Below are positions 3,179 through 29,775 of a stretch of 33,347 bases of DNA, piece after piece. Made by a program: the position numbers and the translations under genes. The notes below the pieces were generated by a model. The model did no database searches, had not been told where the DNA came from, and saw only the letters and a program-made list of their open reading frames with translations. Origin of the DNA: a virus; the IMG/VR virus record IMGVR_UViG_3300006736_000037, positions 1 through 33,347 of that record. One strand, 5' to 3'. The stretch's first letter is position 1. Every line of letters starts with the position of its first letter.

Positions 3179-3189
3179 TAGTCTTATTA
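3179..3189 (+). promoter_or_regulatory. TAGTCTTATTA promoter motif 1
   Basis: Exact 11-bp motif followed by AGTGA, 21 bases after the stop of the outer-membrane-like gene and just before the structured noncoding region. No -35 box is evident (upstream is AAAAGTTTTTCG). It probably starts the RNA at about 3195. Confidence 0.65.
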
Positions 3190-3194
3190 AGTGA

Positions 3195-3574
3195 AACGTT
3201 TGTTAAGTGAAGTGTTTGAAAACAGAATAGGAAACAGCGGGTGACATGAGGTTTGGTAGAACCTGGGATATGGTGAAATGTAAGGCTACCACCCGATTAC
3301 ACCTAAGAAAAACATCTATGAATGGTGTTGGGGCTATTAAAGAAGCGACTATGTTTGCCCCGCGACCGCGCTTGTAAGTTTTCCGTTTCGGTGGTGAATT
3401 AAGTCCTAGACTACGTTGTTAGTCTAGTTGATGCCCGGAGCTGAGTGTGGAATCCAGCCATGTTACCTGTTGTTTCTTATAATCAAACGAAAGTAGGTGA
3501 TTAAACCCGACACCAAAAACTCTAACGGAGTATAACTTATATATTGAAAGAAGTAACTCTAGATTTAGACGTAA
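3195..3574 (+). ncRNA. Putative structured noncoding RNA 1
   Basis: About 380 bases without a convincing gene, between a promoter motif and a strong hairpin. Exact complementary pairs, in order: 3218-3223 with 3378-3383; CGGGTG 3238-3243 with 3290-3295; AGGTT/AACCT 3249-3253 with 3260-3264, whose loop TGGTAG (3254-3259) is complementary to CTACCA 3286-3291, a possible pseudoknot; ACACC/GGTGT 3299-3303 with 3324-3328; GGGGC/GCCCC 3330-3334 with 3357-3361; CTAGACT/AGTCTAG 3406-3412 with 3421-3427. Some overlap by two bases and would compete. The region is visibly more GC-rich than the flanking genes. It does not look like tmRNA, RNase P RNA or a group I intron core. Lying directly upstream of the UvsW-like helicase, it could also be part of a replication origin. 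RNA status is inferred. Confidence 0.5.
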
Positions 3575-3626
3575 AAACTACCCTGAGAAAATCGAGAACA
3601 ATGTGGCACTCATCTCAGGGTAGTTT
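3575..3626 (+). terminator. 14-bp perfect hairpin, terminator-like
   Basis: AAACTACCCTGAGA (3575-3588) pairs perfectly with TCTCAGGGTAGTTT (3613-3626) around a 24-base loop. The downstream tract (CATATTACAATA) is only weakly T-rich, so it may be a processing or stabilising 3' hairpin as much as a terminator. It separates the noncoding region from the next promoter motif. Confidence 0.6.
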
Positions 3627-3649
3627 CATATTACAATAAACAATATTTA

Positions 3650-3660
3650 TAGTCTTATTA
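3650..3660 (+). promoter_or_regulatory. TAGTCTTATTA promoter motif 2
   Basis: Exact motif followed by TATGAGGAG, ending 17 bases before the start codon of the UvsW-like gene. The GAGGAG Shine-Dalgarno lies right after the motif, so any transcript starting just downstream would have a very short leader. Confidence 0.7.
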
Positions 3661-3677
3661 TATGAGGAGAGTTTTAA

Positions 3678-5165
3678 TTGTCAGTGAAAATAGTAGTTAC
3701 ACCAACTAAAAGTCAAATAGAAGGTGATTTGCCTTCAAAGGTTAAAAACAAGATAGACCAAGCACTATGTCATACTGATAAAAAGTATTACATTATAAGA
3801 AAGGTTTCTAACTGGGATGGTAAGACTAGATTCTTTTCAAAAGTAACAAATAAGTTTCCCACCGGTTTACTACCAGACGTTGTGAAGATATTAAAGGAAA
3901 ACAAAGTTGATTTTAAATTAACTAGAAGTAAAACATACCCGTTATACATAAAACCAATAAAAGATTATCATAATGTTGATTTTGTCATTTTAGATATGGA
4001 ACTAAGACCTATACAAAGAAAAGTTTTGAATAGGATGTTGGAGAAAAGAAAAGGTGTTGTCTGGTGTGCTACAAATTTTGGTAAAACAAATGTCTCTGCA
4101 ATCCTAATAAGAGCTTTAAATTATCCACAAACACTGTTTCTAGTTAACGAACAAGACTTATTATATCAAACGTATGGTGTATTTAAAAACGAAGCAGGAG
4201 CAGATTTAGTTGGTATAATAGGTGACGGTAGTTATAACCCACGAAAAGTAACGGTAGCAACAGTCCAAACACTTTATTCCAGAACAAAAAAGTTTAGAGA
4301 TATAAAGGAGAACGAGGATAAAGCTACTTATAAAGTTAAAAAAATACAGCACAACAAAAGACGAGTGGAAACACTAGAATACCTCGCTTCTATAGAATTA
4401 TTATTACTTGACGAGTGTCATAATGCAACGTCTTTTTCTTGGTATAAAATAGCCATGAACTGTAAAAGTGCTTGGTGGCGATTTGGTTTATCTGGCACAC
4501 CTTTAACAGATAACGAAGTTAGAAATATAAGACTGAAAGCTGTTACTGGTAAAGTTATAGCACGTGTAAGAAACAAGCTCATGATAGAAAAAGGATATTC
4601 CGCTAAACCAACTATACATATCGTACCAGTACCAAAAATAAAGAAATACGACACCTGGTTTCAGGCTTATAAACATAATGTTGTTGAGAGTGAATTCTTT
4701 AATACCTTAGTCGATGCAGTAGTAAATAGGTTTACGACACAAGGTAAAAAGGTTTTATGTTTGGTGAACAGACAAAAACAAGGTTACATATTAGAGGAAT
4801 CAATGAAACCAATAGCAAAGTTTATTTATGGTAAAACATCACATAAAGATAGACAGAAAGCTGTTGATGACTTTGTTAAAGGGAAGAAAAGGGTTTTAAT
4901 AGCCTCAAAGATATTTTATCATGGTATAGATATACACGATATAAACGTCCTGGTGAACGTTGGTGGCATGCAAGCTTGGTGGACGTTACTTCAAAAGGTT
5001 GGTAGAGCATTAAGGGAAAAGCCAAAAGGACAAAAGAACGTTGTTGACGTTGTAGATTTTTATATGCAAGATAAAGGTTTTTTAGAAAAACACAGTAAGA
5101 TAAGGTTAAAGGCTTATAAAGATGAGGAATTTGAAATTAAGATTATGAAAGGACTAAAAGTATGA
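3678..5165 (+). CDS. uvsW: SF2 DNA/RNA helicase, UvsW-like
   Basis: A 495-residue superfamily 2 helicase, close in length to T4 UvsW, which unwinds R-loops and remodels forks. Residues 1-90 form an N-terminal accessory domain. Motif I is ATNFGKT (131-137), with Asn where the first P-loop Gly usually stands; motif II is DECH (245-248), motif III SGTP (272-275) and motif VI QKVGRALR (439-446). The start is TTG 3678: AGGAG lies 8 bases upstream, whereas the next in-frame candidate (GTG 3684) would be too far. It is first in a replication operon behind promoter motif 2 and overlaps the dNMP kinase by 4 bases. Helicase family is secure; the UvsW role is inferred from length and context. Confidence 0.82.
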   Translation: MSVKIVVTPTKSQIEGDLPSKVKNKIDQALCHTDKKYYIIRKVSNWDGKTRFFSKVTNKFPTGLLPDVVKILKENKVDFKLTRSKTYPLYIKPIKDYHNVDFVILDMELRPIQRKVLNRMLEKRKGVVWCATNFGKTNVSAILIRALNYPQTLFLVNEQDLLYQTYGVFKNEAGADLVGIIGDGSYNPRKVTVATVQTLYSRTKKFRDIKENEDKATYKVKKIQHNKRRVETLEYLASIELLLLDECHNATSFSWYKIAMNCKSAWWRFGLSGTPLTDNEVRNIRLKAVTGKVIARVRNKLMIEKGYSAKPTIHIVPVPKIKKYDTWFQAYKHNVVESEFFNTLVDAVVNRFTTQGKKVLCLVNRQKQGYILEESMKPIAKFIYGKTSHKDRQKAVDDFVKGKKRVLIASKIFYHGIDIHDINVLVNVGGMQAWWTLLQKVGRALREKPKGQKNVVDVVDFYMQDKGFLEKHSKIRLKAYKDEEFEIKIMKGLKV

Positions 5166-5725
5166 TATTGATAGCTTTAGGTTATAAAAGGGGAGTAGGT
5201 AAAACAACTATTGCAAGATATATATGCGCCCGGTATGGTGGTAAAATATTCTCTATAAGTAACGAGATAGAAAACACGGTGTATAGCTTATTTGATAAAG
5301 ACATAAAACAACATAAACATAGTGAAGTAGCATTACACGATGTTGGTAAATCACCAAGAACATTGTTACAGGAAACCGGTCAAGCAATGGTTAATATTTG
5401 GAATAAGGTTTGGATGAGGAAGTTAGAAAAGAGAATAGATAGATATTTAGTAACGAAGGATTTGCATAGTAACTCTATCGTAGTTATTGATGATATTCGA
5501 CGTGCATATGAAATAAACTTCTTACGTTCTATGAGACCAGACTCAACTATTGTAAAAGTAGAAAGGAATACTGGTATACAAGATAACCATACAACGGAAC
5601 ATGAGTTAGATAGTTTTAATAATTGGGATATATTAATAAAAAATAATGGTGATATAGATAGTTTACATAAGGTGGTTCATGATAAACTTATTTGGAGAAG
5701 TAATAAAGAAGAAAACCAAGGATAA
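5162..5725 (+). CDS. Deoxynucleoside monophosphate kinase
   Basis: A 187-residue P-loop kinase resembling phage T4 gene 1-type dNMP kinases. The Walker A motif is GYKRGVGKTT (residues 7-16). A second conserved block, VVIDDIRRAYEINFLR, matches the 'DD-R-NE' segment of the family, and TEHELD lies near the C-terminus. It should phosphorylate dNMPs to dNDPs with ATP in the cytoplasm; a separate thymidylate kinase is encoded at 17760. It starts with ATG overlapping the helicase stop (ATGA) and overlaps the next gene by 47 bases. Confidence 0.8.
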   Translation: MILIALGYKRGVGKTTIARYICARYGGKIFSISNEIENTVYSLFDKDIKQHKHSEVALHDVGKSPRTLLQETGQAMVNIWNKVWMRKLEKRIDRYLVTKDLHSNSIVVIDDIRRAYEINFLRSMRPDSTIVKVERNTGIQDNHTTEHELDSFNNWDILIKNNGDIDSLHKVVHDKLIWRSNKEENQG

Positions 5726-6437
5726 AAGAAAAGGCTTCTTAAATGTAAATCTTAGTGGTGACGATTTGGTTATATTGAAACTTACTAAGATATATAAGGA
5801 ACACAGGGAAGCGGCTTTTCATCATCCTTATAATCCGGTGAGCTTTAAAAAAGATCCACGTAAAAGTAAGAACTGGAAGTGTTTTAAAAGACTACACCAG
5901 ATAGCAACAGTAAACGAAATAGATCCAGAAAAGTTTTTAGGTTATTTGATAGACCATTACAGCAGAATGAATTGGCAGTTTCCTATGCCGAACAACCTTT
6001 GTTCAGAAAACGCTTTACATTACGTTGACGAGCAAAGACAGTTTGAAGGTGTCGATTTTGACGAGGGTAGAACAGAGACCGTGGAAGAGATAGAAGAAAC
6101 ATTAAAGGAAAAAGCACAAAGGTTAAAGGTAATACACAAACGTAGAGCAGTAGACTTAATAATTGATAAAGTTGAAAAGGAGTCTAATTTAGTGGAACAA
6201 CAACCTTATTACGACATACGTATTGAACTTGAGGAGATATACATACATCTAATAAGGTGGAGCAAAGAAAGAGGATTTACAACCGTTGATCAAGTTATAA
6301 AGAACATAGAACACATGATAACAAAAGATAAACCAGGTGAAATTGCTTTAGCCTGGTTGAAAACAGAGTTAGGTAAAAGGTGGATAAAAAACATTGAAAC
6401 CAGAGTTCAGGGAAATGAAACCTATAGACGAGGTTAA
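5679..6437 (+). CDS. Hypothetical replication protein, possible helicase loader
   Basis: A 252-residue soluble protein of unknown family, with AAGGTGG about 5 bases before ATG. The N-terminus reads INLFGEVIKKK, almost the same as TLFGEVSKK at the start of the UDG-polymerase gene product, and resembles the bacterial clamp-binding pattern (xLxLF). Residues about 45-110 (HHPYNPVSFKKDPRKSKNW) are basic and aromatic; the rest is mainly charged helix. Its place two genes before the DnaB-like helicase suggests a helicase-loading or primosome role like T4 gp59, but I saw no matching motif. The clamp-binding idea is inference. Confidence 0.6.
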   Translation: MINLFGEVIKKKTKDKRKGFLNVNLSGDDLVILKLTKIYKEHREAAFHHPYNPVSFKKDPRKSKNWKCFKRLHQIATVNEIDPEKFLGYLIDHYSRMNWQFPMPNNLCSENALHYVDEQRQFEGVDFDEGRTETVEEIEETLKEKAQRLKVIHKRRAVDLIIDKVEKESNLVEQQPYYDIRIELEEIYIHLIRWSKERGFTTVDQVIKNIEHMITKDKPGEIALAWLKTELGKRWIKNIETRVQGNETYRRG

Positions 6438-6591
6438 GCCTCTTGTTGCTTTAGGGCAACCACTTATAATAGTTCTACCTAACGAGGCTGGAGCAATAAT
6501 GATAGATAAGACATGGACAGAGAGTGATTTTGAGGCTTTTCTAAAACAATATCACGCAATAATTGGTTACCTCCTTAAAACAAATGGATAA
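6394..6591 (+). CDS. Small hypothetical protein upstream of DnaB-like helicase
   Basis: A 65-residue protein if it starts at TTG 6394 (AAAGGTGG about 10 bases upstream), or 58 residues from ATG 6415, whose Shine-Dalgarno is too close. Its 5' end overlaps the preceding gene. It has a short hydrophobic stretch (PLIIVLPNEAGAIMI) that looks like buried strands rather than a TM helix. No known family. It ends inside a 16-bp tandem repeat. Confidence 0.5.
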   Translation: MKPEFREMKPIDEVKPLVALGQPLIIVLPNEAGAIMIDKTWTESDFEAFLKQYHAIIGYLLKTNG

Positions 6592-6615
6592 GGTTATAAA
6601 TGGATAAGGTTATAA
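6584..6615 (+). repeat. 16-bp tandem repeat around the dnaB start
   Basis: ATGGATAAGGTTATAA occurs at 6584-6599 and again at 6600-6615, and a partial third copy (ATGGATAA) forms the start of the helicase gene at 6616. Each copy carries an ATG preceded by AAGG, so the duplication repeats a weak ribosome site and start. The first two ATGs encode only the 7-residue peptide MDKVING. Confidence 0.8.
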
Positions 6616-7947
6616 ATGGATAACGACATATACGACGATGAGTACAGAACAAAGTTACTCACGTGGTTTTTAAAAGATAAAGACTTCTTAATGAAAAACT
6701 ATCAATTCCTGTCACCAGAATATTTTAGAAAAAAGTGGCAGGAAAAAATCGTTGTAGAAAAACTCCTTGATTATCTGAGGGACTACAACAAAGCACCCTC
6801 CATACCTGTACTTGTAAGAGAAATAAAAGATGAGATAATGTTTGAAAAAGACAAAGGTAAACTAAAACTACTCCTCCAGCTCATTAAGGATATAAAAACC
6901 ACGGAACTTAGTGATGGTGAATATTTTGAGAGAACATTAGTTAAGTTTGCTCGTGGTGAAGCTGTACTAGGTGCTTTATCTACCGCTATACCACTGTTTG
7001 AGAACCAAAGATATAACGAAGCTTTAAGATTAATAGATAAAGCAAGCAGGGTGGGAGCGGTGGAAGAAGATGTAAGTAATTACTTTGAAAACATGGAAGA
7101 TAGGGTAGCTTACACCAAAACAGAAGAGGAAATGTTCTATCCAACACTCATAACAGGCTTAGATTTAGCCATTGGTGGTGTAAGGCGAGGACAGGACTTT
7201 AGCGGTATCTTAGCTCCAACCAACGTGGGTAAAACAACGTTTTTAGTGAACATAACAGCAGGTATGTTGTTCTCTTATGTACCATCGTTGTATATTAGCT
7301 TGGAACAGGGTAAAGAGGACATAGAACACAAGTTTGATGCATTGTTTAGTGGTCAACATATAAGTAATATAGGAAGAAAAAGAGGAGAAGTATTGTTTAG
7401 ATTAAGGGGTATAAAGAAATTACTTTCACCACAGTTACTAATAGTAAAAATGACACCAAAAAAGTTTAACGTAAAAGATTTGAGATACATGATAGAATAC
7501 ACCGTACCCATGAAGTATGGTTTTAAACCAGGTTTTGTTGCTTTGGATTATGCTAGTCTGATGGGTACGTTGACAAGAAGGAATAGTAAAACGGAAGAAG
7601 CTGGTGAAGTCTTTACTGATATATATGGATTAACAGGTGAACTAAAGATACCTATATGGACGGGTGACCAGAGCAGTAAGAGGGCAGCAAGCAAGAAAAT
7701 TATCACCGTGGAAGATGGTAGTTGGGCTTACGAGAAGTACCAGACAATGGACACGGTTTTAGCACTGTGTCAAACCAAGAAAGAATTTATCAATGGTATA
7801 ATGAGGATATTTGTTGCCAAAGGTAAGTTCAAGAAAAAGTTTGCTATCGTAAAGATAAAGATGGATGGTGGACATGTTAGGATATTGAAGAGTTGGAAAC
7901 CGGTTTGGTATGATACGGAAGATAAGAAGGGTGAAAAAAGTGAATAG
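6616..7947 (+). CDS. Replicative DNA helicase, DnaB/gp41-like
   Basis: A 443-residue RecA-fold hexameric helicase that should unwind the replication fork with the primase encoded two genes later. The N-terminal helical domain covers about residues 1-150. GLDLAIGGVRRG is the typical lead-in to Walker A APTNVGKTT (200-208); SLEQGKEDI follows, and Walker B is FVALDYASLM (about 307-316), with sensor-like GDQSSKR after it. Length and motif order fit DnaB/T4 gp41. The start is the third ATG of a 16-bp repeat; the upstream ATGs are quickly closed. It overlaps the methyltransferase start by 8 bases. Confidence 0.85.
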   Translation: MDNDIYDDEYRTKLLTWFLKDKDFLMKNYQFLSPEYFRKKWQEKIVVEKLLDYLRDYNKAPSIPVLVREIKDEIMFEKDKGKLKLLLQLIKDIKTTELSDGEYFERTLVKFARGEAVLGALSTAIPLFENQRYNEALRLIDKASRVGAVEEDVSNYFENMEDRVAYTKTEEEMFYPTLITGLDLAIGGVRRGQDFSGILAPTNVGKTTFLVNITAGMLFSYVPSLYISLEQGKEDIEHKFDALFSGQHISNIGRKRGEVLFRLRGIKKLLSPQLLIVKMTPKKFNVKDLRYMIEYTVPMKYGFKPGFVALDYASLMGTLTRRNSKTEEAGEVFTDIYGLTGELKIPIWTGDQSSKRAASKKIITVEDGSWAYEKYQTMDTVLALCQTKKEFINGIMRIFVAKGKFKKKFAIVKIKMDGGHVRILKSWKPVWYDTEDKKGEKSE

Positions 7948-8428
7948 TAATATAAAAATATCTAGAGGGTATTGTGGTATAGGTTTATTCCAACCAAAAA
8001 ATTCTATTAATGTTGGTTCTGTATTACGCTCTGCTGGAATTTATGGTGCGTCTTTTGTAGCCGTTACTGGTGGTAGAATACCATTTAAATATAAAAAATC
8101 TTCTACAGATACGATGAAACATTATAGACATTTACCACTAATACAAATAGCTAATTTGAAAAGTATAATACCGTTTGACTGTGTACCGGTTGCGATAGAA
8201 TTAATTGACGGCGCAAAAACGTTACCAGAATACAAACATCCAGAAAGAGCTTTCTATATTTTTGGTCCGGAGGATGGTACACTTGGCAAAAACGTTTTAA
8301 GGTGGTGTCGTGATATTGTATATATACCTACAAACGGATGTATGAATTTAGCCTGTTGTGTAAATGTAGTATTATATGATAGAATGTCAAAAAAATTAAC
8401 TAATGAAAACCAATGTGGCAAAACATAA
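7940..8428 (+). CDS. SpoU/TrmH-type RNA 2'-O-methyltransferase (SPOUT fold)
   Basis: 162 residues from GTG 7940, chosen because AAGG lies about 9 bases upstream; an upstream ATG at 7910 would extend it into the helicase gene without a ribosome site. All three SpoU motifs are visible: NSINVGSVLRSA (21-32), YIFGPEDGTLGKN (106-118) and IPTNGCMNLACCVNVVLYDR (129-148). It should use S-adenosylmethionine to methylate a ribose 2'-OH in tRNA or rRNA, working as a dimer with a trefoil-knot site. At 162 residues it is near the minimal TrmL/TrmH core without a substrate-binding extension. It is unusual to find it between a helicase and a primase. Confidence 0.82.
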   Translation: MNSNIKISRGYCGIGLFQPKNSINVGSVLRSAGIYGASFVAVTGGRIPFKYKKSSTDTMKHYRHLPLIQIANLKSIIPFDCVPVAIELIDGAKTLPEYKHPERAFYIFGPEDGTLGKNVLRWCRDIVYIPTNGCMNLACCVNVVLYDRMSKKLTNENQCGKT

Positions 8429-9447
8429 ATAGTATCAAATCCTTTCTGAGGAGATACCTACATATCCATAAAGCTTCTAACCGTGGTTATGAGTGGGAAC
8501 TAGAATGTCCAAACTGTGGTAACGAGAAAAACTTTCATTTTAACATATATTCCAGAAAAGGACAATGTTGGATATGTAAGTTCAAGGTTGGTTCCATGGG
8601 TGGTATTATTTATAAGTTAAAAGAAAAAGGTAGATACATAGAATTCGCTAGTCATTACCACGACCATAAACAATTTACACCGGTAATAGTTGGTATGGAA
8701 GAAGAGGTTAGTTTTAAATCCTTGATAAAAGAGTTGACGGCAAACAAAGAAATAATTAGAAAATTAAAACCTGTACCACTACCAGAAGAATATAAACCCA
8801 TTACCAACATCAAAAAAATAAAATCAGAGATAGTCCTTAGATCCATAAAGTATATACTTAAACGTGGAGTTACGGACGAACAAATAAAACGACATAAAAT
8901 AGGCTACTGTGGTACAGGTAGACAGGCTGGAATGATTATTATACCCGTGTTTAACAAGGCTGGTGAACAAGTGTACTGGACAGCAAGGCGGTTAACCAAA
9001 CTAACAGGTAAAACCAAATTCTACAATCCACCTAAAAAGGATAGATATTTTAGTAAAGATTGTGTATTGTATAATATAAACAATATATATGGTAAGAGGG
9101 AGGACGTTGTGCTGGTGGAAGGTTGGAGGGATGTGCTGAGTATAGACGATAGGGCTATAGGTATATTTGGTAAGTCTTTGTCTGACCACCAGTTGGACGT
9201 TTTGGTATCTAGTTTTAAATCTTTCACCGTGTTACTTGATCCGGACGCTTATCCAGAAGGTGACCATTTTGAAGTAGCTCGGAAATTAGCTGGATTCTCT
9301 AAAGAGGTTTATGTAGCTGAATTACCGGTGGAAGCCGGTGACCCTGGAAAATGTAGCAAGAAATACTTGGAAAACATATTAAATCAGAAAAAACTTTTCA
9401 CGGAAAAGCTAGTGTTTGAGAGACTTTTGGTTATAAAGAAAAAATAA
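8413..9447 (+). CDS. DNA primase, DnaG/gp61-like
   Basis: A 344-residue primase that makes RNA primers at the fork. The N-terminal zinc ribbon has Cys32, Cys35, Cys52 and Cys55 (CPNCG...CWICK). The TOPRIM domain follows, with VLVEGWRDVL (Glu236-Gly237) and the acidic pair in VLLDPDAY (Asp276, Asp278) for metal binding. Length matches compact phage primases rather than full bacterial DnaG. It overlaps the preceding methyltransferase gene by 16 bases and has no strong Shine-Dalgarno, so coupled translation is likely. Its final codons begin the 58-bp repeat that carries an early promoter. Confidence 0.85.
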   Translation: MWQNINSIKSFLRRYLHIHKASNRGYEWELECPNCGNEKNFHFNIYSRKGQCWICKFKVGSMGGIIYKLKEKGRYIEFASHYHDHKQFTPVIVGMEEEVSFKSLIKELTANKEIIRKLKPVPLPEEYKPITNIKKIKSEIVLRSIKYILKRGVTDEQIKRHKIGYCGTGRQAGMIIIPVFNKAGEQVYWTARRLTKLTGKTKFYNPPKKDRYFSKDCVLYNINNIYGKREDVVLVEGWRDVLSIDDRAIGIFGKSLSDHQLDVLVSSFKSFTVLLDPDAYPEGDHFEVARKLAGFSKEVYVAELPVEAGDPGKCSKKYLENILNQKKLFTEKLVFERLLVIKKK

Positions 9448-9490
9448 ATCAAATTATTTTCGTTTTAAGGGTTGTATTTCTTTTGGTTAT
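9433..9490 (+). repeat. 58-bp direct repeat, copy A
   Basis: This stretch is identical over 58 bases to 10673-10730. It spans the last codons of the primase, an AT-rich upstream element and the -35 plus most of the spacer of a sigma70-type promoter. The downstream leader (AAGAAATTTAA, then GGAGATAAGTAAATGAGCAA) is also shared, with a diverged stretch at the -10. Confidence 0.9.
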
Positions 9491-9500
9491 CTGCTATACT
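9472..9500 (+). promoter_or_regulatory. Sigma70-type early promoter A
   Basis: TTGTAT at 9472-9477 and TATACT at 9495-9500 are separated by exactly 17 bases, with A/T-rich sequence upstream. This is a good match to a host housekeeping-sigma promoter and opens the run of small early-type genes beginning at 9534. Confidence 0.75.
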
Positions 9501-9533
9501 TTAATTAAGTAAGAAATTTAAGGAGATAAGTAA

Positions 9534-9785
9534 ATGAGCAAAACACTCCCCGCAACAATTACTCCCAAAAGAAAAGTATTTAAAATCCTGCAATGGGATT
9601 GTAAACACGCTTTTAAAAAAGGCCATAGGTTTAATGTTATATTGGAGTGTGGACATTGGGAAGAATTAACTAAAACAGAATTACGAGATAAAAAACATTA
9701 CTGCTTTGCTTGCAAGAAAAACAAACCTCCAGATAATTTAGCATTAGAAGTTATGAAAGATGAGGGAGTTAAACCAATAAAATGA
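9534..9785 (+). CDS. Small putative zinc-binding protein
   Basis: An 83-residue basic protein, first gene after early promoter A, with an excellent site (AAGGAGATAAGTAA before ATG). Paired metal ligands are visible: Cys23/His25, Cys39/His41 and Cys57/Cys60 (ECGH...CFAC), typical of small phage zinc-ribbon proteins. As the promoter-proximal early gene it may redirect host functions, but no family was recognised. Confidence 0.65.
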   Translation: MSKTLPATITPKRKVFKILQWDCKHAFKKGHRFNVILECGHWEELTKTELRDKKHYCFACKKNKPPDNLALEVMKDEGVKPIK

Positions 9786-10524: not shown

Positions 10525-10734
10525 ATGTTTACAAAACAAGAAGCTATAGATAAAGTTGAAGATACAAGTTGTTGTCCAAGATGTAGATATCTAGCGGCTG
10601 GTTATATCCTCAGAGGATATTGGAAAAATATTGATGCTTCCACTATTTCTAAAGCTGATAGAATTAGATGGAATAAAGAAAAAATAAATCAAATTATTTT
10701 CGTTTTAAGGGTTGTATTTCTTTTGGTTATGTAG
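10525..10734 (+). CDS. Small CxxC protein with C-terminus read from a duplicated promoter
   Basis: A 69-residue protein. Residues 1-50 look like a real small protein with CCPRC near the start. From about residue 50 (10673 on) the codons come from the 58-bp repeat, giving the hydrophobic tail NQIIFVLRVVFLLVM. In the other copy the repeat begins in the primase's last codons in another frame and is terminated at once. The gene was therefore probably truncated or re-ended by the duplication. Whether the tailed product is functional, for example membrane-bound, is unknown. Confidence 0.5.
   Translation: MFTKQEAIDKVEDTSCCPRCRYLAAGYILRGYWKNIDASTISKADRIRWNKEKINQIIFVLRVVFLLVM
10673..10730 (+). repeat. 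58-bp direct repeat, copy B
   Basis: Identical to 9433-9490 over 58 bases, 1240 bases downstream in the same orientation. It carries the same -35 and spacer; the -10 region after it differs (TAAACT instead of TATACT). Confidence 0.9.
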
Positions 10735-10740
10735 TAAACT
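10712..10740 (+). promoter_or_regulatory. Sigma70-type early promoter B
   Basis: TTGTAT (10712-10717), a 17-base spacer, then TAAACT (10735-10740). The -10 is weaker than in copy A. It lies across the 3' end of the preceding gene and before the gene at 10782. Confidence 0.65.
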
Positions 10741-10781
10741 TATCTTAGTTAAGAAATTTAAGCGGATAAGGAGATAAGTAA

Positions 10782-11021
10782 ATGAGCAAAAGTAAAACCC
10801 TCCGCAAACACGACACCCTAGAAGTTACTATTCCAAAACAACACCAGTATCCTAAAAAGTATCAAGGAAAAGTTATGACTGGTGAAATAGTAAAGATCAA
10901 CAAAAAATCTTATGAGGTGGTGGTGCAGGATAAAGGAACTACGTTGACGGTTTTAGTTAGAAAAGAAAAAGTGGATAAGGGGATGAGCAAATGCCAGAAA
11001 GTAAGAAAGTTAAGCAGGTAA
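10782..11021 (+). CDS. Small basic hypothetical protein
   Basis: A 79-residue basic protein that begins MSKSKTL, with the same leader and first residues as the gene after promoter A (MSKTL), so the 5' end may have been copied with the promoter. The core (HDTLEVTIPKQHQYPKKYQGKVMTGEIVKINKKSYEVVVQD) alternates strands and turns like a small SH3/KOW-type barrel, but this is a weak impression. The C-terminal codons overlap the next gene by 31 bases. Confidence 0.55.
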   Translation: MSKSKTLRKHDTLEVTIPKQHQYPKKYQGKVMTGEIVKINKKSYEVVVQDKGTTLTVLVRKEKVDKGMSKCQKVRKLSR

Positions 11022-19731: not shown

Positions 19732-20085
19732 GTGGAGGAACCAACTATAACTTTAGAAAAATCCGGTACATTTCATTCAGCACATTTTCTACCTAATCAC
19801 CAAGGCAAATGTAAAAACTTCCATGGACATTCTTGGCATTATAATGTAACTTGTAGGGGTAAAGAATCTGACTTATTACATTTTGATAAACCAGATGACG
19901 GAATGATTATTGATTTTGGTGTAATTAAAGCGGTGGTTGATTCTTTATGTCATAAAGATTTAAATAAGATAATTACAAACCCGACAGCAGAAAGGATAGC
20001 TTTATTTATTATGAGGCAGATTCCTTCTTGTGTAAAAGTGGAATTATGGGAAACAGATACAAGTAAGGTAACGGTTGAGGTATGA
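19732..20085 (+). CDS. queD: 6-carboxytetrahydropterin synthase QueD
   Basis: A 117-residue enzyme converting dihydroneopterin triphosphate to 6-carboxy-5,6,7,8-tetrahydropterin, step 2 of 7-deazaguanine synthesis. Zinc ligands His18 (FHSAHF), His31 and His33 (FHGHSW), catalytic Cys27 (GKCKNF), Asp70/His74 and Glu105 (ELWET) are all present. Start is GTG 19732, with AAAGGAG 11 bases upstream. Length is normal for QueD. First gene of the modification operon; the stop overlaps queE. Confidence 0.9.
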   Translation: MEEPTITLEKSGTFHSAHFLPNHQGKCKNFHGHSWHYNVTCRGKESDLLHFDKPDDGMIIDFGVIKAVVDSLCHKDLNKIITNPTAERIALFIMRQIPSCVKVELWETDTSKVTVEV

Positions 20086-21355: not shown

Positions 21356-21914
21356 TGTACAAAAACAAAATCTAGTAATAGATTTTATATCAGCTATTGG
21401 CGATGATCCTAATAGAGTTGGCTTAAAAGATACACCAGATAGGGTCGTAAGAATGTGGGAAGAGATTTTTCGTGGTTATGATAAATCTAAAGAACCAAAA
21501 GCAACTTGTTTTCCAAATGGTCAAGATGGATTACTTTATGATGAAATGATAATTGATACCGGTTATTTCTATTCTCATTGTGAACATCATATGGTGCCAT
21601 TTTTTGGTAGATACTGGTTTGCTTATATTCCTAAAAACACAATTATAGGATTATCTAAGGTAGCGGATTGGATAGATTACTTTGCCGCAAAATTACAGAT
21701 CCAAGAACGGTTAGTAAAAGAGGTGGTGGATAAGTTTGAAAAACTACTTGAACCTGTTGGTATAGGTTTAGTAATGAAAGGCCGGCACATGTGTAAGGAA
21801 ATGCGTGATGTAAGGAAATATGAAAGCTACATGTATACCAGCGATATGAGAGGTGAATTTAGAACCCGCCCGGAAGTTAGAAGTGAATTTTTACATTTTG
21901 TAGATAAAGGATGA
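21348..21914 (+). CDS. folE: GTP cyclohydrolase I FolE
   Basis: A 188-residue enzyme turning GTP into dihydroneopterin triphosphate, the entry step for 7-deazaguanine synthesis. Signature blocks: GLKDTPDRV (25-33), SHCEHHMVPFFG (76-87), GLSKVADW (101-108) and KGRHMCKEMR (144-153). Zinc ligands Cys78, His81 and Cys149 are intact. The family's EMRGV reads EMRDV. Having its own FolE lets the phage draw directly on GTP. Overlaps queC by 8 bases and queF by 4. Confidence 0.92.
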   Translation: MDDVQKQNLVIDFISAIGDDPNRVGLKDTPDRVVRMWEEIFRGYDKSKEPKATCFPNGQDGLLYDEMIIDTGYFYSHCEHHMVPFFGRYWFAYIPKNTIIGLSKVADWIDYFAAKLQIQERLVKEVVDKFEKLLEPVGIGLVMKGRHMCKEMRDVRKYESYMYTSDMRGEFRTRPEVRSEFLHFVDKG

Positions 21915-22360
21915 AAAATGATATGGAAAACGTTAAAGACTGGTGGTTTACAAAAAGTATAGAAGAAATGTCGATTCAAGAAATAGCTGAAAGAACACAA
22001 GTTGTGATGGATTTACAGCTATCAGAAAGTATTAAAACAATACCTTACATTGGAACACAAGTAAAAGTAACCTACAAAACAGAAGAATTAATAGCACTCT
22101 GTCCAGCAACAGGATATCCAGACATTTATGAAATAAATATTGTCTTTATTCCGTCTGAACTACTACCAGAACTTAAAAGTCTAAAGTTCTATTTTATGGA
22201 GTATTTATATATTCCTATATCACATGAACATTTAATAGATAAAATTTATCAGGATTTTTCTATTAGAGTGAAACCCAACCAGCTTCACATCACTTTAGAT
22301 GTAGCTATTAGGGGCGGCATAGCTACAAATGTCACTAAAGGAGAAGTAATTAATATATGA
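21911..22360 (+). CDS. queF: NADPH-dependent preQ0 reductase QueF
   Basis: A 149-residue single-domain (type I) QueF. The nucleophile Cys64 lies in LCPATGYPD, with Asp71; the NADPH motif is ELKSLKFY (87-94), close to the E(S/L)K(S/A)xK(x)(Y/F/W) consensus; His105-Glu106 lie in ISHEHL; RGGI near the end binds substrate. Spacing between Cys, the motif and His-Glu follows the bacterial family. It should reduce the nitrile of preQ0 to the aminomethyl of preQ1. No amidotransferase domain is fused, unlike Gat-QueF. The motif argues against the QueF-like amidinotransferase. Overlaps both neighbours by 4 bases. Confidence 0.85.
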   Translation: MKNDMENVKDWWFTKSIEEMSIQEIAERTQVVMDLQLSESIKTIPYIGTQVKVTYKTEELIALCPATGYPDIYEINIVFIPSELLPELKSLKFYFMEYLYIPISHEHLIDKIYQDFSIRVKPNQLHITLDVAIRGGIATNVTKGEVINI

Positions 22361-23283
22361 AGATTTATCTCGCTGTTTCAACTGCCGACATATTTAGTTT
22401 AATGGTTAGATGTGGTGTTGAAAATATCTTGGTTAGTTATTTTTATATCATAAAATCAAAAAAGTTCCACGAAGTTATAAAGCAAAGTAAGGAAGCTAAT
22501 AGCAATTTATCGATAATGTTAGATAGTGGAGCGCATTCCATTCAAACTGTCGGAAAAAAACAGAATTATAATGCGTTCTTTAAGGAGTATGTGAAGTACC
22601 TCAAAAAGTATTCATATTTATATGACCAGTTTGTTGAGCTTGATATTGAAAATGTTGTAGGTTTAAAAATTGTTGAAGTTTATAGAAAAATTCTTGAGAA
22701 ATATATTGGTAATCCAATAGTTGTTTGGCATTGTATGCGTGGTTGGGATTATTGGTTACATATGATTAAGAAATATAAATATGTGGGCTTTTCTGGTTTT
22801 ATACGGAAAGGAAAGAAAGAAGTACCTATTGATTATATAGGTAAGTTTCTTAATGCCGCAAAACAGAATGGCACAAAAACGCATGGGTTTGGTATAACTT
22901 CACCAAAAATGTTGAATAGATTCAACTGGGATTCTGTTGATAGCAGTAGTTGGCTTCAGCAGGCAAGAACAGGAAGCGTTTCTGTTCCTAGTAATATTGT
23001 TGATAAATGCCACTGCAAAAATTTGTCTAGAATAGTTGTATCAAATAAACAGTTAAGTAATAAAGACCACATACGAGCTTTACCTAAGTTTGTGAGAGCA
23101 AAAATTATTGATTATCTAAAGGAAATAGGACAGAGTTATTTTGGTGATAAGAGTAGGTTTGACTTATCTTGTATTAGTACTGATTATAAATCACGGTTTG
23201 AGGTAAATTTAATATACTATATGAAACTACAAAAAGAGATTAATGATAGAAAAAAAGAGGTTCGGCTTAACACATTAGTATAG
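22357..23283 (+). CDS. dpdA: DNA 7-deazaguanine transglycosylase DpdA-like
   Basis: A 308-residue protein resembling phage DpdA, the TGT-fold enzyme that swaps guanine in DNA for a 7-deazaguanine. MLDSGAHS (54-61) corresponds to the DSGG block of TGT with the conserved Asp; ELDIENVVG and YVGFSGFIRKG match later barrel strands; GFGITSPKMLNRFNWDSVDSSSW carries the likely nucleophile Asp region; CHC (about 224-226) recalls part of the TGT zinc site, though the full Cys set is not seen. It ends the queD-E-C-folE-queF operon. Its TAG stop is the start of the next promoter motif. DpdA role is well supported by context. Confidence 0.82.
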   Translation: MKIYLAVSTADIFSLMVRCGVENILVSYFYIIKSKKFHEVIKQSKEANSNLSIMLDSGAHSIQTVGKKQNYNAFFKEYVKYLKKYSYLYDQFVELDIENVVGLKIVEVYRKILEKYIGNPIVVWHCMRGWDYWLHMIKKYKYVGFSGFIRKGKKEVPIDYIGKFLNAAKQNGTKTHGFGITSPKMLNRFNWDSVDSSSWLQQARTGSVSVPSNIVDKCHCKNLSRIVVSNKQLSNKDHIRALPKFVRAKIIDYLKEIGQSYFGDKSRFDLSCISTDYKSRFEVNLIYYMKLQKEINDRKKEVRLNTLV

Positions 23284-23291
23284 TCTTATTA
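23281..23291 (+). promoter_or_regulatory. TAGTCTTATTA promoter motif 7
   Basis: Exact motif beginning with the dpdA stop codon, followed by TATGAAAGG. It stands 21 bases before the sliding clamp start and identifies a new transcription unit for the replisome. Confidence 0.72.
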
Positions 23292-23312
23292 TATGAAAGG
23301 AAGTGTAGAGTG

Positions 23313-24110
23313 ATGGTGACAAAAGTACAGGTCAACAAAGGCGATTTTTCTCAATTTCTTAACCAGGTGGGTCTCAGCAGCCGTGTTCCTGATTGTGTAT
23401 TACTAGCAAAAAGTAACCAGATCCAGGTGAAAGCTGTTGGTCATGAACACCTTGTATTTCTTCAAGGTGGGTTAAAAGCAAAGACAATAGAAGAGGGTAA
23501 GATTATAATACCTTCTATCCAACAGTTTCAAGCGGTACTTGACCGGTTCTCGTCTGATACCATACAACTCCAGGCAACAACAAAAAACATAAAAGTACTT
23601 CAAAAAGGTAAACAAGGAACATTTACCATAATGGCAGAGCACATGATGGAAAGTACTGCTGGTTTAAGTGATTTTAAAGAAACAGATTATAAGAAACTAT
23701 ATTTTAAAGCAAAGAAAAATGGTATTGAAGCTAAGTTCTCAAAGAAAAACTCTTTTACTACCAGTGTCAATGTGTTAAAGGAAATTATTAGTGATGCAAC
23801 AGTAGTTGGTGAAGAGTTGTATAACTTCTGTTTTGCTGCTGATAAAAACAAGTTAAAAGTTATTATTGAGAATGACACCAAGTCAGCAAGGTTTACGGTT
23901 ATACCTGAGTTAGAAGAAGTTAATATAACCAAGAACTTTCGGACAACAATGGGTTCTGGTTTACGTGAAATAGTAACGTCCAGTGGTGGTGAAGCTCTTG
24001 TTTTCTTCTTTAACCCAAAAGGTAAAGGTTTAGCAAGTATGCCAGTGTGGATAAAGGTAGGAAAATTCAACTATATCCTCCAAACACAACAGGAGGCTGA
24101 AGAAGAGTAG
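23313..24110 (+). CDS. Sliding clamp (PCNA/gp45-like)
   Basis: About 265 residues from ATG 23313; GTG 23310 is equally possible given AAGGAAG upstream. Two-domain beta-alpha pattern of clamps: a first domain (about 1-125) with FSQFLNQVGLSSRVPD and strand runs, and a second domain after it, ending PVWIKVGKFNYILQTQ. Length fits PCNA/T4 gp45 trimers rather than the 366-residue bacterial beta clamp. Overall resemblance and its place before an RFC-like loader support the call; no single signature motif exists. It should tether the polymerase and may also co-activate transcription as T4 gp45 does. Confidence 0.72.
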   Translation: MVTKVQVNKGDFSQFLNQVGLSSRVPDCVLLAKSNQIQVKAVGHEHLVFLQGGLKAKTIEEGKIIIPSIQQFQAVLDRFSSDTIQLQATTKNIKVLQKGKQGTFTIMAEHMMESTAGLSDFKETDYKKLYFKAKKNGIEAKFSKKNSFTTSVNVLKEIISDATVVGEELYNFCFAADKNKLKVIIENDTKSARFTVIPELEEVNITKNFRTTMGSGLREIVTSSGGEALVFFFNPKGKGLASMPVWIKVGKFNYILQTQQEAEEE

Positions 24111-24862: not shown

Positions 24863-25738
24863 ATGCTAACGGAAAAGTATAGACCAAAAACGTTTATGGA
24901 GTTCAGAGGACATGAAAAGATAGTAAAGGCGATACAGAACCACATAAAGAAAAACAAAACAATACCTCACCTTTTGTTTTATGGTAATGCCGGTACAGGT
25001 AAAACCACCCTCGCTCTTATTATAGCTAGAACGTTGTTCGGTTCTGACTGGCGAGGTAACTTCTTGGAACTAAACGCAAGTGCAGATAGAGGTATAGGTG
25101 TTATAAGAAACAGAGTAAAAGAGTTTGCAAGGACAAAAGCATTAGCACAAGGCAATACAAAAAAAATTATCTTCTTGGATGAGGCGGATTTCCTGACGAA
25201 AGAGGCTATGACTGCTTTAAGAAGAACAATGGAGGAATACCATAGAGGCTGTAGATTTATACTATCAGTAAATTATAAAGAAAAGTTGATAGAACCACTT
25301 GTGTCCAGGTGTCTTGAATGTCACTTCAAGGATTTTAAAGCAAAGGAAATGGTGGTACACCTGTTAAAGATAATGAAAAAAGAAACAGGTGATTATGATA
25401 AAAAGATAGGAATAAGGATAGCAAAACGTTCTGGTGGTGATATGAGAAAAGCTATCAGTATGTTGAACAAGTATCTTGATGGCGGCGGCATCTCCGGTGC
25501 CGATTTGGAAGATAACCTGTTAGGTATGAAAATTGGTGCTTTCATAAAATATACGTTTGAACACGCTGGTGAAGCCGATCTGGTGTTGGATAAGATATAT
25601 AAAGAAGTTATTAAGCAGAAAAAAAGAAAAGATATGTTACCATTGGTAGCCGAAGCAAACTTCAACATGACACAAGGAACCATAAAAGTGTTACAACTCC
25701 AGTCATTGTTCTGTGGGTTGAAAGGGTTGATGAAGTGA
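24863..25738 (+). CDS. Clamp loader ATPase, RFC small subunit/gp44-like
   Basis: A 291-residue AAA+ ATPase that opens the clamp onto primed DNA. The N-terminal [17 protein letters not shown] is the RFC box; Walker A is GNAGTGKTT (41-49), Walker B/DEAD LDEADF (105-110), and SRC (148-150) carries the arginine finger. Sensor 2-like [11 protein letters not shown] and the helical collar follow. The sequence looks more like archaeal/eukaryotic RFC than bacterial DnaX, as in T4 gp44. GGAGG precedes the ATG. Confidence 0.9.
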
Positions 25739-25833
25739 ATGAAAATACTTGTATATTAATTGCTGGTTTAGTAAGTTCTATATCTGGTGTGGTGATAGCT
25801 TTATATATAATTAAGAAACACTATGAACAATGA
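25735..25833 (+). CDS. 32-residue TM microprotein
   Basis: GTG 25735 overlaps the loader stop (GTGA) and the TGA overlaps the exonuclease start (ATGA), so the gene exactly fills the space. It encodes [16 protein letters not shown] followed by [16 protein letters not shown]: one TM helix (about 6-26) with a basic C-terminal tail. No obvious role in replication; could be a membrane-tethering or holin-like peptide. Both overlaps argue that it is real. Confidence 0.5.
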
Positions 25834-26465
25834 CAACTAAATACCTCTTCCTAGACGTTGAAACAACCGGTACATCACCTATCATACACGATATCTATCA
25901 GATAGCTTACATAATAGATGTAGACGGTAAAGAAGTGCTAAGAAACAGCTTCAACGTTAAACCATTCAGTCCGGATACCATAACGCAACCAGCTTTAAAC
26001 ATAGGTGGTTACACAAAAGAAGAGATAATGGAGTTTCCGGATTATAAAGAGGTAAAAGAAAAGATAGTGGAAGACTTTAAACTTCACATAAACATAAGAG
26101 ATAGTAACGATAAGATGTATCCGGTTGGTTTTCATGTTTACTTTGACATGAGCTTCTTCGCCATGTTTTTTAAGAAGTGTAATGATCGGTTTCTAGGTAG
26201 TTTTATAAACTGGAGGAGGTTAGATATAGCACCGTTTGTTCATATGTTGGAATGTAGAGGATTACTAAAGCTAAAGAATTATAAGTTAAAAACTGTTTGT
26301 GAACATTTTAGTATAGAACTTGAGGATGCCCATGATGCTATGAGTGATATAGTTGCTACTAGGGAATTGTTTCATGTAATAAATAAAACCACGGAATTTA
26401 ATTTAAACTCTCCTTCAGTAGATGACGATGAAATAGAAGAAGAGATCTTTGAGGAAATTATATGA
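25830..26465 (+). CDS. 3'-5' exonuclease, DnaQ-like (DEDDh)
   Basis: A 211-residue DEDDh exonuclease. Motifs: FLDVETTG (Asp9, Glu11), FHVYFDMSFF (Asp106) and EDAHDAMSDI (His168, Asp173), the set used by DnaQ epsilon and RNase T. It should remove 3' nucleotides from single-stranded DNA or RNA. It overlaps the polymerase gene, which keeps its own proofreading motifs, so this enzyme may serve repair, recombination or host DNA degradation instead. Acidic C-terminal tail (DDDEIEEEIFEEI). Confidence 0.85.
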   Translation: MTTKYLFLDVETTGTSPIIHDIYQIAYIIDVDGKEVLRNSFNVKPFSPDTITQPALNIGGYTKEEIMEFPDYKEVKEKIVEDFKLHINIRDSNDKMYPVGFHVYFDMSFFAMFFKKCNDRFLGSFINWRRLDIAPFVHMLECRGLLKLKNYKLKTVCEHFSIELEDAHDAMSDIVATRELFHVINKTTEFNLNSPSVDDDEIEEEIFEEII

Positions 26466-28963
26466 CGGTAACACTGTTTGGTGAAGTGTCAAAAAAGTGT
26501 AGTGGTTGTAATCTATCACAAAACACTATTATAAATCCGTGTATAAAACCTTCAAAGTATGGAAAGAAGGTTGAAATACTTTTTATTGGTGAAGCACCTG
26601 GCGAACAGGAAGACGAAGATAATAAAGTATTTGTTGGTAAGACCGGTCAACTCCTAAAAAAGAATTTAAAGAAATTAAGGTTTACCAACTTTGCTTTAAC
26701 CAACGCTGTTAGATGTAGACCAATAACCTCTAATGATAGAAATAGGAAACCAACCGGAGGAGAAATTAAAGCTTGTAATAAATTTCTTTTAAAGGAAATA
26801 AGGAAATATAAAGATACATTAAAAATTATAGTTCCACTTGGTAATACTGCGTTAAACTCCCTGATGAAACTTACAGGCATAACAAGGTTCAGAGGTAAAC
26901 TTTTAAAGTACAGTAACAGTAAAGCAGGTGTAGAGAATATAAACGTGTTACCTACTTTCCATCCAGCTTCTATGTTATATAAAGATGCCGAAGATAAAAT
27001 AGAGTTATTTGTATTGGATTTAAAAAAAGTAAAAGATATTTTAAGAGGTAATACTGAATTAAAAAAAGAAACAGAAAGTTTTAATTACAAGTTTGCGGAA
27101 AATGATAGTCAAGCTTTATCCTACCTAATGCAATTACAAAAGCATAAGATAATAAGTGTTGATATAGAAACTTTTAACAAAGATGATAATAGGATAACTG
27201 TTATAGGTTTTGGTTATGGTAAAAAGAAAGCCTTTTGTATACCCATTTGGCATAATGATATAAAGCTAAAACACCCTGATACAGTTAGAGGAGAGATAAA
27301 ATCAGTACTGGAGGATACCTCTATAACTAAAGTCCTACAGAACGCTAAGTTTGACGTGTTACAGCTCATGAGAGACTGGGATATAGAAACAAAAGGTAAG
27401 ATGTTCGACACATTACTCGCTCACCAGTTGTTAGACCAGAAAGGTTCCAACGATTTGGAAACAATGGTGTGGGAAAACTTACCGGAGTATGGTGGTTATA
27501 AAAAAAGGTTTTGGGGTAGGTTTGATAAATATAATAATACATATAAAATACCCATAAAAGATTTATCCGATTATAATTGCATGGACTGCGATACTACCTA
27601 CCAGTTAGCCTTTATATTAACCAAGCAGTTGAAGAAGACTGGTTTGTGGGATCTATTTTGGAACATAGTAATGCCGGTATATTCAGAGTGTTATATGTAC
27701 TTGATGTATTACGGAGTAAAACCTGATATACAATATGTAAAGAAGATAAAGAAAATGTTGGAAGCAAAGATAAGGAATATGAGATTTAGCCTTTGTGAAT
27801 ATAAAGAAGTAAGAAGATACCAGATGACCAAAGGATCTAAATTCAAACTAACATCGTCAGACCAGTTAGCAGAAATACTTTTTAATAGGATGAAATTGCC
27901 TGTAATATCGAGAACTAAGAAAACCAAGAAACCACAAGTTAATAACCAGGTTCTAATTGTTTTAAGGGATGATCATAAATCTAAGTTTGCCAAGGATCTA
28001 CTTGATTATAAAAAAGAGATAACAAGGTTGAATACCTTTGTTACACCAATACTTGATAAATGGACATGGGAAGACGGTAGAATACATCCTATGTACAGGT
28101 TTGTTGACACCGGTAGAACAGCTACTAAACACCCAAACATGCAAAACATAGAAAGAGGAAGCTTTTTAAGAAATATATATTGTAGTAGAGAAGGCTGGTG
28201 GTTGTTGGGTGTAGATTATTCTCAAATAGAATTGAGGGTTTGTGCTGCTATATCTGGTGATAAAGCAATGACGGAGAATTATGTAAATGGTGGAGATATC
28301 CATATAACAACAGGTTGTGGTATTTTTAATTGTACACCAGAGGAATTAACAAAAGACCAAAGAACAAAAGCAAAACCATATAACTTTGGAGTTATTTATA
28401 TGAGGTCGGCTGAAGGTTTAGTTTCAGATAGGAAAGACTTTAATGTAGACGGAACAAAGAAAGTAAAACAGGTGCGTAAAGATATAGAAGCCTTTTTAGA
28501 GTTATATTGTAGTGTACCGGAATACTGGGATAAGGTTTTCTTTTCTGTTAGCAAAAAGGGATACATTACAAACCCGTTCGGCAGAAGATATTACTTCAGA
28601 GATTTACAAGGTTTAACCCGTGAAGAAATAAGAAAAGAGGAACGGCTGGAAAGTTTACTTAGAGCTGCTGTAAATGCACCTATACAGGGTGGTGCTTCCG
28701 ACATAATAAAGAAGGCTTTTATAAACATAATGAGAAGATTAAGAAAAGAAAAGTTATTAGGTATGTTAAATAAGGTAGTACCAGTAAACGAAAATCACGA
28801 TGCTTTATATTGGGAAATTATTAAAGGTGTGGTAAGAGAAATAGCGGGTATTATAAAAGAGGAAATGGAGAATGTAGAAGTTCCGTGGTTGGGAGATATT
28901 CCTTTGGTAGCAGACTTAGAGATTGGCAAAAGATGGGGAACAATGAAGGAATTAGAGTTATGA
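26462..28963 (+). CDS. Uracil-DNA glycosylase (family 4)-DNA polymerase A fusion
   Basis: An 833-residue replicative polymerase. Residues 1-195 form a family 4 UDG domain: iron-sulfur Cys13, Cys16, Cys85, Cys105; GEAPGEQED (43-51); NAVRCRP (81-87); FHPASML (166-172). Then a 3'-5' exonuclease with VDIE (Asp234/Glu236), NAKFD (294-298) and YNCMD (371-375), and a family A polymerase with DYSQIELR (motif A, Asp585), RTKAKPYNFGVIY (motif B, Arg634-Tyr647) and NENHDALY (motif C, Asp780). All catalytic residues seem intact. UDG-PolA fusions are known in SPO1-type phages. The N-terminal TLFGEV may bind the clamp. Confidence 0.9.
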   Translation: MTVTLFGEVSKKCSGCNLSQNTIINPCIKPSKYGKKVEILFIGEAPGEQEDEDNKVFVGKTGQLLKKNLKKLRFTNFALTNAVRCRPITSNDRNRKPTGGEIKACNKFLLKEIRKYKDTLKIIVPLGNTALNSLMKLTGITRFRGKLLKYSNSKAGVENINVLPTFHPASMLYKDAEDKIELFVLDLKKVKDILRGNTELKKETESFNYKFAENDSQALSYLMQLQKHKIISVDIETFNKDDNRITVIGFGYGKKKAFCIPIWHNDIKLKHPDTVRGEIKSVLEDTSITKVLQNAKFDVLQLMRDWDIETKGKMFDTLLAHQLLDQKGSNDLETMVWENLPEYGGYKKRFWGRFDKYNNTYKIPIKDLSDYNCMDCDTTYQLAFILTKQLKKTGLWDLFWNIVMPVYSECYMYLMYYGVKPDIQYVKKIKKMLEAKIRNMRFSLCEYKEVRRYQMTKGSKFKLTSSDQLAEILFNRMKLPVISRTKKTKKPQVNNQVLIVLRDDHKSKFAKDLLDYKKEITRLNTFVTPILDKWTWEDGRIHPMYRFVDTGRTATKHPNMQNIERGSFLRNIYCSREGWWLLGVDYSQIELRVCAAISGDKAMTENYVNGGDIHITTGCGIFNCTPEELTKDQRTKAKPYNFGVIYMRSAEGLVSDRKDFNVDGTKKVKQVRKDIEAFLELYCSVPEYWDKVFFSVSKKGYITNPFGRRYYFRDLQGLTREEIRKEERLESLLRAAVNAPIQGGASDIIKKAFINIMRRLRKEKLLGMLNKVVPVNENHDALYWEIIKGVVREIAGIIKEEMENVEVPWLGDIPLVADLEIGKRWGTMKELEL

Positions 28964-29751
28964 AACCTTATTACAAGACAAAACTAGGTATACTATACTA
29001 TGGAGATTGTTTAGATGTAATGCCAAGGATTAAGACTGGTGTTGTTGATTTAGTTTTAACCGACCCACCATACGGAACAACCGCTTGTAAATGGGATAAT
29101 GTTATTGATTTTGATTTGATGTGGGAACAGTTGAACAGAATAATAAAACCTAATGGTGCAATAGTTTTATTTGGTAGTGAACCTTTTAGTAGTGCTTTAA
29201 GAATGAGTAATATTAAAAAATATAAATATGATTGGATTTGGGACAAGAGAAAAGCAGGCAATTTTGCTTTAGGCAATAGGCAACCATTAAAGACACACGA
29301 AATAATAAGCGTATTTAGTTTGAAAACACACAACTATTACCCTCAAAAAACACTTTTAGACAAGCCTCAAACTAGGCATTTAGGGAAAAAATCAATAAAT
29401 AGAAAAGATGGTTTTACGGGAGGTGTAGGAAAAGAAATAAAATACGGAAAAGATTACGAGCCGAACAAAAAACTTCCAATATCTATACAGGAATTTAAAA
29501 AAGATAACTATAAAAACAATAGATTTCATCCAACTCAAAAACCTGTTAAACTGTTAGAATACCTAATAAAAACATATAGTAATGAAAATGATATTATATT
29601 AGATTTTACAATAGGATCAGGAACAACAGCAATAGCTTGTGAAGCATTAAACAGAAGATGGGTAGGAATAGAAATATCAGAAGAATATTGTGAAATAACA
29701 AAAATGCGGTTAAGAAAATATAGAAGAACGAAAGGTAATAAGTTCTTTTGA
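28960..29751 (+). CDS. DNA N6-adenine/N4-cytosine methyltransferase
   Basis: 263 residues from ATG 28960, overlapping the polymerase stop (ATGA); longer upstream frames would lie inside the polymerase gene. Beta-class order: catalytic TDPPYG (34-39) first, target-recognition region about 120-185, then FHPTQKP (189-195) and the SAM site DFTIGSGTT (215-223). It should methylate adenine N6 or cytosine N4 in a short target; specificity is not readable. No restriction endonuclease gene adjoins, so it is probably a solitary protective or regulatory methylase, a second DNA modification beside the 7-deazaguanine system. Confidence 0.88.
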   Translation: MKPYYKTKLGILYYGDCLDVMPRIKTGVVDLVLTDPPYGTTACKWDNVIDFDLMWEQLNRIIKPNGAIVLFGSEPFSSALRMSNIKKYKYDWIWDKRKAGNFALGNRQPLKTHEIISVFSLKTHNYYPQKTLLDKPQTRHLGKKSINRKDGFTGGVGKEIKYGKDYEPNKKLPISIQEFKKDNYKNNRFHPTQKPVKLLEYLIKTYSNENDIILDFTIGSGTTAIACEALNRRWVGIEISEEYCEITKMRLRKYRRTKGNKFF

Positions 29752-29764
29752 TAAACAAAAATAG

Positions 29765-29775
29765 TAGTCTTATTA
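29765..29775 (+). promoter_or_regulatory. TAGTCTTATTA promoter motif 8
   Basis: Exact motif followed by TATGAAAGG (the same extension as motif 7), 19 bases before GTG 29795. It opens the recombination-type unit (SSB, RecA, SbcD). Confidence 0.72.

Follow-up and report, generated by a model that had tools for sequence, protein, structure and literature searches.

A bipartite promoter-like element of an uncultured phage, probably read by a gp28-type sigma factor

The gp28-dependent middle promoters of Bacillus phage SPO1 (Herelleviridae) carry the boxes AGGAGA and TTTnTTT. T4 late promoters consist of a single box (TATAAATA), are activated by the clamp (sliding clamp, gp33, and gp55), and lead virion genes. 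Phage sigma promoters have been described as generally well conserved and few in number (PMC4331800), and promoters of this sort are proven in phiEco32 and phage 7-11. In phiEco32 (gp36, middle/late), transcription starts 6-8 bp 3' of a single conserved element, tAATGTAtA, and the gp47-dependent late promoters of phage 7-11 are bipartite, GTAAtg-(16)-aCTA (PMC8948821). The late promoters of Staphylococcus phage K lead late genes without a -35 motif, and a gp34-like sigma factor was proposed for them (PMC9241854). We analyzed a 33,347-nucleotide stretch of viral DNA (IMG/VR record IMGVR_UViG_3300006736_000037, positions 1 to 33,347; referred to as the window), in which an original prediction had described eight copies of an 11-base promoter-like motif, TAGTCTTATTA. 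The element probably represents a phage sigma-dependent promoter class, of the middle type as far as its genes indicate, which would be read on the host RNA polymerase by a gp28-type sigma factor encoded at 13115 in the same window.

Nine exact copies of TAGTCTTATTA were found, all on the + strand (1876, 3179, 3650, 13753, 18396, 18705, 19689, 23281, and 29765). The eight copies described originally were all exact, correctly placed, and on the + strand, and the copy at 1876-1886 was added to them. The reversed control pattern did not occur in the window. When one mismatch was allowed, a single site was added on the - strand (1490) and none on the + strand; the resulting 10 sites compare with 2.19 expected from dinucleotide shuffles, and none of 100 shuffles reached 10. 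Markov models gave 0.01-0.05 exact copies expected per strand, in agreement with the earlier statement that chance would give far fewer than one. Using a weight matrix built from the nine sites, all nine scored at least 21.7 bits, the next + site scored 8.7, and the best - site scored 8.4; with this gap, the site set is all-or-none and has no tail of near matches. In the late region of phage K, used as a control, exact 11-mers reached just four well-spaced copies, which makes nine copies exceptional.

Intergenic DNA accounts for 4.4% of the window and holds eight of the nine copies. Eight copies were at least 70% intergenic, compared with 4.1% of the window positions qualifying (binomial p 8e-11). 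The motif is not spread equally over both strands and within genes; no exact copy lies on the - strand of the window. As all the predicted genes of the window are on the + strand, the shared orientation means only that the motif runs with the genes, and it is not independent evidence. The sites are few, strongly conserved, located at gene or operon starts, and oriented along the direction of transcription, which is the pattern of a phage sigma-dependent class.

The original prediction had seen no shared -35 box, and this was wrong. Alignment of the flanks revealed an upstream box, TTnCnnTAAA, at a fixed distance from the core (offsets -19 to -10), with T at -13 in eight of the nine sites, A at -12 in all nine, and C at -16 in six. 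The best ten columns carried 6.87 bits of information, a value reached by none of 20,000 random sets of nine positions and none of 20,000 sets taken upstream of open reading frames (ORFs); each set was scored by its own best columns, which accounts for the choice of columns. The flank 3' of the core reads W, R, T (8/9), and R. The copies had been said mostly to continue with TATGA or AGTGA, which holds for five of the nine (TATGA in four, AGTGA in one) and fails for the other four. The full site is bipartite, TTnCnnTAAA-N9-TAGTCTTATTA-WRTRA. Taking TATTAW within the core as the -10 element would place the upstream box at about -37 to -28, and about 19 bp separate the TA of this box from TATTAW. 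The element was rightly described as unlike a host sigma-70 promoter, which has a TTGACA-like box 16-18 bp from a TATAAT-like box, as the aligned columns contain no TTGACA; in a consensus scan, the sole core copy scoring as a -10 was that at 29765 (TTGATA-17-TATTAT).

The proposed reader of the element and the promoter ahead of its gene block are as follows.

13115-13744, + strand: sigma-70-family protein of 209 amino acids, SPO1 gp28-like
9472-9500, + strand: candidate promoter of host type (TTGTAT-N17-TATACT, extended -10 TG), heading the small genes that end in the sigma gene

The 13115 protein matched the phrog_351 sigma factor family, TIGR02937 (E 3.9e-10; score 39.6, slightly under the curated cut-off of 42.9), and Sigma70_r2 (E 1.4e-4, just under the cut-off). 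It aligned with SPO1 gp28-type proteins over its whole length (hhalign probability 91, E 1.1e-6, 174 columns); the match to gp28 in tblastn was weak (E 7e-3), and no pairwise match was obtained with SPO1 gp34. A PDB sequence search with the protein was uninformative, and single-sequence structure models were too poor for use, with a mean pLDDT of 42 for the sigma factor and 35 for a clamp-like protein encoded further downstream. The sigma gene is the last of a block of small genes behind the host-type promoter, and these genes are probably early. Five gaps of at least 60 bp were found; four carry the motif, two of them twice, and the sole one without it (9448-9533) holds the host-type promoter candidate. 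Two further stretches, 15010-15100 and 25725-25840, were rejected as promoterless gaps, as they appear to hold very short membrane-peptide reading frames (15022-15078, where an 18-amino-acid frame was confirmed, and about 25740-25835, judged by eye). The host-type promoter, a ribosome-binding site, and a start codon are contained in a 110-bp direct repeat (9433-9542 and 10673-10782, 86% identical), the second copy of which has a decayed -10.

From these features, we infer the following switch. The gp28-type sigma factor would be made early from the host-type promoter near 9472-9500 and would displace the main host sigma factor on the host RNA polymerase. The polymerase carrying the phage sigma factor would then go to the TTnCnnTAAA-N9-TAGTCTTATTA-WRTRA sites, where the core would supply the -10 (TATTAW) and transcription would start about 6-7 bases after it, just 5' of the ribosome-binding site. 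The class would turn on genes for replication, nucleotide metabolism, and DNA modification and two non-coding RNAs. Readthrough from the promoter at 3650 into the sigma gene may make the class self-reinforcing.

The main competitor to this scheme is a phage-encoded RNA polymerase, of either the single-subunit (T7/Xp10-like) or the multi-subunit (AR9-like) type, whose gene would lie outside the window. The exact core resembles polymerase-specific promoters; for example, the early promoters of AR9, AAATATATATTAT-(6N)-G, tolerate almost no change (PMC5312081). We consider such a polymerase unlikely, as a sigma gene is present, the spacing of the two boxes is typical of sigma recognition, no polymerase gene of this kind was seen in the 33-kb window, and the phage shows no kinship to phiKZ-like phages.

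The placement of the copies and the main features downstream are listed below.

1876-1886, + strand: core copy 1, 12 bp past an endolysin-like gene and within ORF 1866 as annotated
3160-3194, + strand: predicted promoter, box TTCCAGTAAA (3160-3169), N9, core 3179-3189 followed by AGTGA, leading into non-coding RNA candidate 1
3192-3640, + strand: non-coding RNA candidate 1, no ORF, folding z -3.9, terminal hairpin of 12-13 bp at 3580-3627
3631-3665, + strand: predicted promoter, box TTACAATAAA (3631-3640), core 3650-3660 followed by TATGA, heading the replication operon
3678-9447, + strand: replication operon (helicase, dNMP kinase, DnaB-like protein, primase)
13734-13768, + strand: predicted promoter, box TTTCCTTATA (13734-13743), core 13753-13763, heading small genes 13833-18398 up to thymidylate kinase
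18377-18411, + strand: predicted promoter, box TATCAATAAA, core 18396-18406, leading into non-coding RNA candidate 2
18410-18680, + strand: non-coding RNA candidate 2, without good ORFs, folding z -3.5, strong terminal hairpin followed by a U-rich tract
18686-18720, + strand: predicted promoter, box GTTCATTAAA, core 18705-18715, heading gene 18758-19630, which has no assigned function
19670-19704, + strand: predicted promoter, box GTCCTTTATT, core 19689-19699 followed by TATGA, heading the 7-deazaguanine operon 19732-23283
23262-23296, + strand: predicted promoter, box TCGGCTTAAC, core 23281-23291 followed by TATGA, heading the polymerase block
29746-29780, + strand: predicted promoter, box TTTTGATAAA, core 29765-29775 followed by TATGA, heading genes for a phrog_1069 protein, SSB, tRNA-Thr, RecA/UvsX, and an SbcD-like protein

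On their 5' side, the copies are preceded by a gene end or a terminator, and on their 3' side they are followed by a ribosome-binding site or a structured non-coding RNA. In two cores, the first TAG doubles as the stop codon of the preceding gene (thymidylate kinase at 18396 and the DpdA/tgt-like gene at 23281), and the copy at 19689 is directly 3' of a 12-pair intrinsic terminator (19649-19675). For the copies at 3650, 19689, 23281, and 29765, a start codon follows 17-32 bases 3', with a ribosome-binding site between. The holin-like gene at 1866-2159 has two possible in-frame starts (1866 and ATG 1920), and the copy at 1876 lies between them; if the gene starts at 1920 rather than at 1866, this copy is also intergenic.

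The operon at 19732-23283 contains QueD-QueE-QueC-FolE-QueF-DpdA-like genes, which suggests 7-deazaguanine modification of the DNA. It comprises the full preQ0/preQ1 pathway together with a QueF-like enzyme and a tgt/DpdA-like transferase. The block after 23281 encodes the clamp-like protein, a clamp loader, an exonuclease, a DNA polymerase, and a methyltransferase. The genes led by the element are of middle-gene content, and the element heads the replication and DNA-modification operons and both RNA regions, as the original prediction of a single regulon had it. Side observations in these blocks include a SpoU-type RNA methyltransferase gene (7910-8428) within the replication operon, a family A DNA polymerase with an N-terminal uracil-DNA glycosylase domain (26462-28963), and a tRNA-Thr (31645-31718) with an AGT anticodon, which is unusual for threonine. 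The listed RecA ORF start (31710) overlaps the end of this tRNA, and thus the RecA start is more likely 31737.

The folding z values of both RNA regions are relative to shuffles. No Rfam match was found in the window or in either RNA region, and no phage relatives of the two candidates were found. Their position behind the element suggests that two structured RNAs may share a regulon with replication and 7-deazaguanine DNA modification.

The original prediction had likened recognition of the element to that of T4 late promoters, in which a gp55-like minimal sigma factor reads a single -10-type element with the sliding clamp as activator. The phage encodes a T4-like clamp loader, the protein at 23310-24110 has a weak sliding-clamp likeness (with the poor structure model mentioned above), and the late promoters of phage K show that a -10 motif alone can be retained (PMC9241854). 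This mechanism did not hold up and is very unlikely here: the site is bipartite with a conserved upstream box, the genes downstream serve replication and nucleotide metabolism and do not encode virion proteins, and the sole sigma factor of the window is gp28-like over its full length. Moreover, TATAAATA occurs just four times on the + strand, at none of the gaps.

A non-promoter signal, such as a binding site for a regulator or replication protein, a site of RNA processing, or a leader element that enhances translation, would account for copies near gene ends and ribosome-binding sites, and the promoter start sites are positions that we infer. Against this, the orientation is fixed, the distance to the start codon varies (17-69 bases), and two of the copies are followed by non-coding RNAs. 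The upstream location of the second box, which overlaps the ends of upstream genes or terminators, fits an RNA leader signal poorly. We regard a signal of this kind as highly improbable.

A nucleotide search of phage records retrieved no relatives. Searches of viral contigs with the polymerase, SSB, sigma factor, and clamp loader retrieved one contig of 99.94% identity (L003/L015) and otherwise only distant relatives (about 22-39% identity), of which the sigma factor and clamp loader retrieved none; no relative of intermediate distance turned up. Alignment of the flanks, proposed with the original prediction, gave the second box, and the motif set was present in none of the distant relatives. 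Among 2.9 million viral contigs, the bipartite pattern was found only in the 99.94% identical contig. A 16-base form had 11 matches beyond the near-identical contig, mostly within genes and usually antisense, and none of them belongs to a repeated set. A further exact copy of the motif, in L119, lies within a gene. The 11-mer was not found in the literature searched.

Reading of the sites by an alternative sigma factor of the host was also considered, as phages can borrow host sigma factors. The bipartite site was sought as an exact pattern in 84,980 species genomes of bacteria and archaea. The scan yielded 11 scattered single matches, at most one per contig, which were taken as chance; most of them lie within genes in antisense orientation or within AT-rich spacers. 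A host sigma factor as the reader is hardly credible.

Several points weigh against recognition by the 13115 sigma factor. The record is 33 kb long compared with 130-150 kb for SPO1-like relatives, and the sites could be read by another sigma factor or an RNA polymerase encoded in the genome beyond the window. The searches found no relative in which both the sigma factor and the motif had diverged. The 11-base exactness is stricter than usual for sigma-dependent promoters. The copy at 1876 is the weakest site, with the upstream box shifted or absent and no WRTR flank. In addition, the promoter consensus once predicted for phage 7-11 from sequence only (PMC4331800) gave way to another one when it was measured (PMC8948821), so predictions of this type can miss.

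The proposed switch is of a known kind, and its DNA sequence is new. We entertain only tentatively the wider possibility that the element is either a new, unusually exact bipartite class, with a divergent gp28-type sigma factor and an almost fixed core, driving two structured long non-coding RNAs of an undescribed kind, or the target of a phage RNA polymerase encoded outside the window. The sequence of a phage sigma factor seldom reveals which promoters it recognizes, and a clean site set near an identifiable sigma gene is therefore useful. From sequence alone, it provides a map of the transcription units of an uncultured phage lineage, and it offers a pairing of sigma factor and promoter that can be tested.

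Compared with known systems, the element resembles T4 late (gp55) promoters in being short, strongly conserved, and near gene starts, but it has neither the TATAAATA -10 nor the missing -35 region. Phage K, a distant family relative, likewise has a phage-specific promoter class. As in phiEco32, a highly conserved block occurs at a few gene starts; in phiEco32 it is read by the core enzyme of the host carrying a phage sigma factor (PMC8948821), as is predicted here. However, phiEco32 promoters have no -35 box, an upstream box is present here, and the sequences differ. The sites of phage 7-11 are also bipartite, few, and marked by TAA in the upstream box, and they depend on a phage sigma factor, as is proposed here. 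Their -10 sequence is different, and they lead late genes, whereas the sites of the window lead replication and modification genes. The boxes TTnCnnTAAA and TAGTCTTATTA do not match the SPO1 consensus (AGGAGA and TTTnTTT), and the phage is only distantly SPO1-like, with about 27% identity between its polymerase and those of SPO1-like phages. The order of the polymerase, SSB, and RecA genes is similar to that in a related Lysinibacillus phage. With SPO1 itself, the phage shares a sigma factor of the gp28 family and middle genes that are replication genes.

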